From the NCBI GenBank assembly GCA_027024155.1, contig JALVTE010000020.1, forward strand, positions 1 to 64,000: 64,000 nucleotides of DNA. The letters are read 5' to 3'. The stretch's first letter is position 1; every line of letters starts with the position of its first letter. The position numbers and the translations under genes were made by a program. This document shows positions 10,897 to 56,244 of the stretch, piece after piece. The notes under the pieces are model-generated. The model ran no database searches. It was not told where the DNA came from and worked only from the letters and a program-made list of their open reading frames with translations. The stretch is from Campylobacteraceae bacterium (lineage in GTDB: Bacteria > Campylobacterota > Campylobacteria > Campylobacterales > Sulfurovaceae).

Positions 10897-11055
10897 CTAA
10901 CTGATATAACGTTTTCTCTTCCTAAAACTTTTGAAAATAGAAAAAATAATAAAGAGTTCTACTGCTATAAGCAAAAAATGTAAATCGTAAACTTTATCTT
11001 TATTATCAATAATGCCTTGATACTCTAGCAATTTATAAAATATATATGAAGCCCC
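10897..11055 (-). pseudogene. Small membrane protein remnant interrupted by a MITE
   Basis: The minus strand is open from the element edge to a stop at 10897-10899. It encodes a plausible membrane-anchor sequence (YIFYKLLEYQG, then IIDNKDK, a hydrophobic helix and a basic tail RKRKRYIS). If the 250-bp element at 11056-11305 and one copy of the GAAGCCCC duplication are removed, the frame continues to an ATG at 11316, giving about 54 codons. No good ribosome binding site is seen at that ATG, so the original start may have been elsewhere. Confidence 0.35.
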
Positions 11056-11305
11056 AATGCCATTAACTTAAGGATTCTATATCTATTTATTGGCTTTAAG
11101 CTTAAAGCTTAAAGCTATCCACTTCATCACTCCCACGGAAGTGGGAGTCCACGATTTTAACTGCCTAAAAGTTGAAAAAGTGCTTGTTCGGCAGTTTAAA
11201 CTGTGGATTCCTGTTTTCACGGGAATGACATGGTGGCAAGCTTTTTGCTTTCAACTTTAAGCTTATAGTATTTTATGGGGTTAAAACTCTTAACTTAATG
11301 GCATT
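11056..11305 (+). mobile_element. 250-bp MITE-like element with 8-bp target duplication
   Basis: The ends AATGCCATTAACTTAAG (11056-11072) and CTTAACTTAATGGCATT (11289-11305) are inverted repeats matching at 16 of 17. The element is flanked on both sides by the same 8 bp, GAAGCCCC (11048-11055 and 11306-11313), a classic target-site duplication. It contains no gene. Inside are palindromic stretches, including ACTCCCACGGAAGTGGGAGT. A second, inverted copy lies at 55889-56098 and a fragment at 144-204. No transposase is encoded in the window, so movement would need one in trans. Confidence 0.85.
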
Positions 11306-11360
11306 GAAGCCCCCATACCGACTAAATAACCAAACTGTTTGGCTGTATCTATAGCGGTAA

Positions 11361-26671: not shown

Positions 26672-26742
26672 CTATTTTCTCCTTAATTAATTTATTTTTA
26701 TCATACAAAAACAAAGGGTACATTCAATGCTATTAAGCTTAC

Positions 26743-26862
26743 CATCGCCGTCATTCTGAGCAGAGCGAAGAATCTAACTTAAACTGCCGAGATTAATTCT
26801 TGGCTCTACAGCCGTTGAAACTAGATTCTTCGCATTCGCTCAGAATGACGGCGATGGCATAG
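26743..26862. repeat. Second copy of the ATTCTGAGC palindromic repeat
   Basis: The arms (26753-26776 and 26822-26846) share ATTCTGAG and GCGAAGAATCTA with the copy at 30-124. Here the inverted symmetry extends outward through CCATCGCCGTC / GACGGCGATGG. The spacer is similar to that of the first copy. It occupies most of the 250-bp gap 26672-26921; nothing else is seen there. Confidence 0.85.
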
Positions 26863-26921
26863 TTTTACATCATCTTATTTTAGGGCACCTCTAATATACA
26901 ATAAGCAAGCCTACTCATAGC

Positions 26922-55765: not shown

Positions 55766-55817
55766 ACATTCAAACTACCAAAATATATATTGTGTAATTT
55801 TAAATATTGACATACGC

Positions 55818-55884
55818 GTAGGGTCGATTTATCGACCAATAATTGAGATGAATTCATATTTTATGGTCGGTAAACCGACCCTAC
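55818..55884. repeat. Nested GGTCGGT palindrome pair (REP-like)
   Basis: Two small palindromes, GGTCGAT-TT-ATCGACC (55822-55837) and GGTCGGT-AA-ACCGACC (55865-55880), face each other. Outer words GTAGGGTCG and CGACCCTAC are also inverted. This BIME-like arrangement shares its core with the single palindrome at 22539-22558. Confidence 0.7.
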
Positions 55885-55888
55885 TGCC

Positions 55889-56098
55889 AATGTTATTAAG
55901 TTAAGAGTTTTAACTCCATAAAATGCACTAAGCTTAAAGTATAAAGCCAAAAGTCTACCATTGCCGAAAAAGTGTTTTTTCAACTTTTAGGCAGTTAAAA
56001 TCGTGGACTCTCACTCTCAAAGGAGTGACGCAGTGGCTAGCTTTAAGCTTTAAGCTTAATGCCAAGAAATGGATATGAAATCCTTAACTTATGGCACT
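55889..56098 (-). mobile_element. Second MITE-like copy, inverted, upstream of recJ
   Basis: Read on the minus strand it follows the element at 11056-11305 along nearly its full length: CCATAAGTTAAGG end, CTTAAAGCTTAAAGCTAGCCACT, GTCCACGATTTTAACTGCC, AAAACTCTTAACTTAAT end. It is ~210 bp long. Its ends are more worn than those of the first copy. CCCTACTGCC lies just before it and CCCTACCGCC shortly after, a possible imperfect target duplication. The in-frame upstream extension of recJ stops at its edge. Confidence 0.75.
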
Positions 56099-56244
56099 AA
56101 GCCCTACCGCCTTATACAATATCCAAGGAATTAAAAATAGAAAAACTATTAAACAAAACAGAAATCTACAATATTCTTTATAATCGCCACAAAGGTGAAT
56201 TTTTAACACTTAAAGAGCTACCCTACCCTCACACCTTCAAAGAT

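Follow-up and report, generated by a model that had tools for sequence, protein, structure and literature searches.

A gene-less element with inverted-repeat ends and its copies

The stretch of DNA analysed here (the window) comprises bases 1–64000 of contig C20 of a marine Campylobacterota genome, a MAG of 2.15 Mb in 123 contigs that is 97% complete. Between 11055 and 11306 lies a complete copy of a non-autonomous transposable element (MITE), 252 bp long, delimited from its sequence and from alignment with other copies. Its ends are 18-bp terminal inverted repeats, CAATGCCATTAACTTAAG on the left (11055–11072) and CTTAACTTAATGGCATTG on the right (11289–11306), both given on the (+) strand, and they pair at 17/18 positions, that is, the 16/17 counted in a first-pass annotation plus an outer C-G pair. 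That annotation had described a 250-bp element with 17-bp terminal repeats. The inverted-repeat element is real, but across the family 77% of ends have G as the base just outside the 17-mer, which makes the terminal repeat 18 bp long. The same annotation was right that the element holds no gene, as we found no ORF of at least 80 aa in it. A search of the whole window against Rfam returned no match.

The element is one of many. Searching the genome for the end sequence CTTAACTTAATGSCATT with up to 3 mismatches, we found 84 forward and 92 reverse matches (176), compared with 6 forward and 4 reverse (10) for a control in which the end pattern was read backwards. Within the window, the end occurs 6 times at the same limit, against 0.73 expected. 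The earlier suggestion of a mobile family is thus borne out by the genome-wide search, and 176 ends imply roughly 80–100 copies, which at about 250 bp each we estimate to occupy ~1% of the genome. BLAST with the element gave 102 matches in the genome, and the exact 18-mer end had 1 match in viral contigs. Complete copies are mostly 220–285 bp in length, and short forms of 63–91 bp and compound forms of 400–527 bp are also present.

Three further copies lie in the window. A diverged copy in the opposite orientation occupies 55888–56099, where an inverted second copy had already been placed at 55889–56098, and its flanks, GACCCTACTGC and AGCCCTACCGC, agree by eye at 8/11 positions. At the contig start, a repeat previously read as a fragment at 144–204 is present, but it is the end of a copy at 1–210 (right terminal repeat at 193–210) that is cut by the start of the contig. 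Many contigs of this MAG start or stop inside a copy of the MITE, which explains this apparent fragment, and the family probably accounts for many of the contig breaks in the assembly. The first-pass annotation overlooked a damaged copy at about 26725–26880; it also missed which IS family is involved, the REP repeats and the preferred target, all described below. The damaged copy retains a left end, CAATGCTATTAAGCTTA, and a REP pair (26750–26774 on the (+) strand and 26824–26849 on the (−) strand), and its right terminal repeat has been lost; AGGGCACCTCTAA follows. Short palindromes of the form TAGGGTCGRTTTAYCGACC adjoin several copies of the MITE, at 55815–55885 in the window and beside C71:20847 and C90:24903–25147, and are possibly another small repeat family.

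Target duplication and target site

The element at 11055 had been thought to be bounded by an 8-bp target duplication. The sequence GAAGCCCC does stand literally on both sides (11048–11055 and 11306–11313, (+) strand), but the last base of the left repeat is also the first base of the 18-bp terminal repeat, the right repeat is off the family register in the same way, and the duplication of the family is 11 bp, not 8. With the 18-bp ends taken as the boundary, the two flanks are alike at 10 or more of 11 positions in 10/37 copies. In a control that pairs left and right flanks from different copies, and which therefore shares the target preference, 2.3% match at this level, giving a binomial P of about 1e-8 for the excess. 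Among the same 37 pairs, no excess was found for duplications of 9, 12 or 13 bp, nor at 8 bp, the length for which a check of the flanks had been proposed; 10 bp gave two cases. The duplications are perfect at several copies, which points to past mobility, and the 27/37 copies without a clear duplication are as expected if these are old. We also looked through the genome for the picture that would speak against a transposable element, copies without duplications and with non-conserved ends, and did not find it. The copy at 11055 itself has no duplication in register. The 9-bp repeat that it does have, TGAAGCCCC, is exact but out of register; mismatched flank pairs yield a repeat of at least 8 bp in 3% of cases if small shifts are permitted, so the evidence for a duplication at this copy is only suggestive.

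Insertions are found at a palindromic target that approximates TTA-RAGGKNMCCTY-TAA, with GAGGTGCCCTT and AAGGGCACCTC as typical forms. The ends of a separate family, MITE-B, match this target, and a few cases of the 252-bp MITE nested in such ends are clear. We considered that the 252-bp MITE inserts only into MITE-B ends and rejected this, as most copies are without a nearby MITE-B partner end: a partner within 2 mismatches was found at 2/34 'inner' and 2/49 'outer' flanks. With so few partners, the palindromic target is probably intrinsic to the element, and the MITE-B ends simply happen to match it.

MITE-B is about 273 bp in length, with ends GGGCACCTCTAA...TTAGAGGTGCCC and, by eye, an apparent 4-bp TNNA duplication. 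Its copies lie at C56:5707–5979, C109:67424–67696, C31:9771–10044, C42:3305–3577 and C92:6605–6878 (L147–L151). Similar elements occur in genomes G062 and G097, and an IS5-family element with such ends is present at G065:C6:2601–3952. At C15:5429–5460 and C9:158–189 (L154, L155), two MITE-B ends stand almost back to back as 32-bp palindromes.

A paired REP hairpin core between mosaic ends

The interior of the element had been noted for further palindromes. It is indeed palindromic, but not randomly so: it consists of an inverted pair of hairpins of the REP kind, a repeat widespread in bacteria. The first (11125–11152, (+) strand), CATC-ACTCCCAC-GGAA-GTGGGAGT-CCAC, was recognized by eye and by folding and has the CGTC-type layout when compared with the repeats of PMC3733652. 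The second (11203–11229, (−) strand; pattern match at 11206–11229) reads TGTC-ATTCCCGT-GAAA-ACAGGAAT-CCAC. CGTC REP repeats, as laid out by Di Nocera et al. (2013, PMC3733652), have a CGTC or TGTC tag, a stem of 8–9 bp, a loop of 4–5 bases and a CCA tail, and are found mainly as head-head dimers. One hairpin type of the MITE family, for example CGTC-ATTCCCGT-GAAA-ACGGGAAT-CCA, has by eye the tag, stem (8 bp), loop (4 bases) and tail of the CGTC-1 repeats. The other, CGTCATTCTGAGCGGATGCGAAGAATCTA (also CATTCTGAGCGGATGCGAAGAATC), which is the type present in the copy at 1–210, has the same tag with an imperfect stem and a CTA tail; it agrees with the published layout only in part, and its membership in the CGTC group is less certain. 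In most copies, GTCATTC..GAATC is followed by its inverse with the tags outward, and this is a head-head dimer as in the published repeats.

These hairpins are tied to the MITE throughout the genome. The pattern GTCATTC-N8-20-GAATC was found at 114 sites, compared with 3 for a control. Among the 100 of these 114 sites that were listed, most lie inside recognisable MITE copies, and 13 regions without a listed flanking end, when checked, all showed some match to MITE copies, which in several regions covered just the hairpin. Nearly all of the sites inspected are therefore in MITE copies or degraded copies. What differs from the published CGTC repeats (PMC3733652) is that the dimer here is set in an IS4-type MITE frame. 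In H. neapolitanus, too, REP dimers (CGTC-1) are regularly enclosed by a larger frame, here a 41-bp palindrome; the survey did not recognize this palindrome as a transposon (PMC3733652), whereas the frame of the MITE has 18-bp IS4 ends and 11-bp duplications. Frame and core are separable, since REP pairs without the frame occur in relatives, both a sister species and another genus (G008 L212; G053), and MITEs with the same ends but without REPs occur in G065 and G098. Genome G053 has about 119 REP-pattern sites (L207, L210, L213 and others) that differ in sequence type and whose tags often point inward; it has very few IS4-type ends and provides a contrast case for the spread of CGTC-type repeats.

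By the 24 bp next to the terminal repeat, the ends can be sorted into five subterminal types. When ends were assigned at up to 8 mismatches of 24, none of the 30 copies with both ends typed had two like ends, against 7.1 expected (P 6e-5), and at a stricter limit there was likewise none among 27 copies (P 8e-5); as the types were defined by eye from the same data, this statistic is a descriptive one. Like-ended copies may plausibly be lacking because long perfect palindromes are selected against.

Resemblance to subgroup IS4 and a proposed spread of the REP pairs

Subgroup IS4 of the IS4 family is characterized by ends of the form -AATR--------WTW and direct repeats of 10–13 bp (De Palmenaer et al. 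2008, PMC2266710). The MITE end CAATGCCATTAASTTAAG conforms to this signature (Table 1 of PMC2266710), the 11-bp duplication falls inside the range, and a strong target preference is common to both. Elements with the same ends are present in relatives of the host, themselves Campylobacterota MAGs. On a contig of a Helicobacteraceae MAG (L129:1317–2903), a 1587-bp IS4-family element has both 18-bp ends identical to the MITE family consensus (18/18); its 457-aa frame scored 141 bits against a cut-off of 115 with the NCBIfam IS4 model NF033592, and no target duplication was evident at this copy. In G098 (L101), a 1568-bp IS4 element has ends that match at 17/18 positions and is inserted at GAGGTGCCCAT, the same target as that of the MITE. 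These autonomous relatives (1.4–1.65 kb) carry DDE and YREK motifs as in subgroup IS4, and in the alignment the transposases of these same-ended elements show the YREK spacing Y-2-R-3-E-6-K. MITEs with the same ends and target and with duplications of 10–11/11 positions were found in G098, G004 and G007. The MITE differs from subgroup IS4 in having no transposase gene, in its length of 252 bp and in an interior unrelated to the autonomous elements found. Its subterminal sequence, too, is unlike that of the related IS4 elements, so simple loss of an internal part of one of them does not explain it.

In the host genome we found no IS4 element with the 18-bp ends of the MITE; this absence is weak evidence, as the MAG is 97% complete and many of its contigs are broken within repeats. 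The sole IS4-family gene found there, C121:46577–47836, belongs to an element whose ends, CAATGCCAATGAAATAAG, have the first eight bases and scattered others in common with the MITE ends and no more. The partner transposase is either missing from the host genome or unassembled. Nor did we find a sister genome with an empty insertion site.

The copies and their ends, the 11-bp duplications, the target, the REP pair and the same-ended IS4 elements of relatives are all direct observations, and the dispersal of the copies, the conservation of their 18-bp ends, the significant excess of duplications and those IS4 elements uphold the original reading of a MITE. That it is moved by a transposase of the IS4 subgroup appears well supported by its anatomy. 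We consider it very probable that such a transposase moves the MITE in trans by a cut-and-paste mechanism, with an 11-bp duplication and with the REP pair as cargo. In this model, the transposase would bind the 18-bp ends and insert the element at an 11-bp palindrome close to RAGGKNMCCTY, which would thereby be duplicated. Each transposition would spread an inverted (head-head) CGTC-type REP pair between the ends, and the pair may be a passenger that is not needed for movement.

Among other ways to account for these features, it is highly improbable that the element is a repeat of the REP/BIME type that owes its movement to a REP-associated tyrosine transposase (RAYT), with the end repeats as mere frame sequence. 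Such an origin would suit an interior that is a REP dimer and the REP pairs found without a frame in relatives (G008 L212; G053). It would leave the 11-bp target duplications and the 18-bp IS4-type ends unaccounted for, as neither is expected from single-strand Y1 transposition of the kind used by IS200/IS605 elements. No transposase gene flanked by CGTC repeats was found in the survey of these repeats (PMC3733652). The hairpins carry the CGTC-type tag instead of the GTAG tag that, with a linked tyrosine transposase, marks the GTAG REP/RAYT system. We also regard as very unlikely a genuine 8-bp duplication, which would place the MITE in an 8-bp group (e.g. IS4Sa or ISPepr1) and make the 11-bp cases a separate set. 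The exact 8–9 bp flank repeat at 11055–11306 would fit this, but the 37 pairs lack an 8-bp excess, the ends depart from the signature of ISPepr1, YT-AA-YTT (PMC2266710), and, by our reasoning, an 11-bp duplication that had lost 5 bp at its left junction would leave the left flank observed.

A reading that is unlikely as a full account, yet compatible with movement by an IS4 transposase, is that the element has lost its mobility and become a host-domesticated functional hairpin, either a transcription terminator or an element of mRNA 3′ ends. All 22 copies with callable genomic context are intergenic (15 tandem, 6 convergent and 1 divergent), and the single-stranded fold of the 11055–11306 element is far stronger than that of shuffles (z −6.3). 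Inverted-repeat ends and REP pairs, however, by themselves lead to strong folding, six related copies showed no covariation support in RNAalifold (covariation term +1.03), and the perfect duplications speak for past movement.

The element represents a new IS4-type MITE family of a known kind whose unusual cargo is a paired CGTC-REP core; in literature on MITEs in Sulfurovum or Epsilonproteobacteria, we found no description of this 252-bp element. Bacterial MITEs in general, such as Nemis/Correia, RUP and MITEAba12, are likewise short, gene-less, intergenic and high in copy number, with inverted-repeat ends. They depend on other transposase families, produce other target duplications and are not known to have a REP pair core. 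A short palindromic target is also known from IS231A, an IS4-family element of a different subgroup with ends CAT-, which inserts at the G/C-edged sequence GGG-N5-CCC with a 10–12 bp duplication and sits in transposon ends.

The authors of the 2013 survey concluded that no transposase appears to be dedicated to the CGTC repeats and raised the question of their mobilization by other transposases (PMC3733652). We tentatively suggest that in this genus CGTC-type REP pairs may have spread as the core of IS4-type MITEs rather than through a REP transposase; copies would have exchanged REP cores and the five end types, and selection would have acted against like-ended ones. If true, it would solve for this lineage the question of how REP repeats of a superfamily with no known transposase are dispersed. 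REP pairs lying between IS4-type ends that leave duplications make the survey's question testable, since the end sequence and the target are both defined and relatives provide candidate transposases.

The REP hairpins are themselves sites of insertion. The IS4 element of C121 (L088, C121:46438–47927) is inserted in a REP hairpin of a MITE copy with a 10-bp duplication, and a 123-bp MITE with ends CAATGCCAATRAATTAAG, like those of this IS4 element, has three copies in MITE REP hairpins (C103:23555–23675, C63:2010–2130 and C35:21449–21569), also with 10-bp duplications. REP hairpins at C66:2538–3062 and C121:46340–48253 are interrupted by sequences that have GAGATTGTGAGAAAACTT at one boundary and its inverse at the other and that probably make up a further MITE family.
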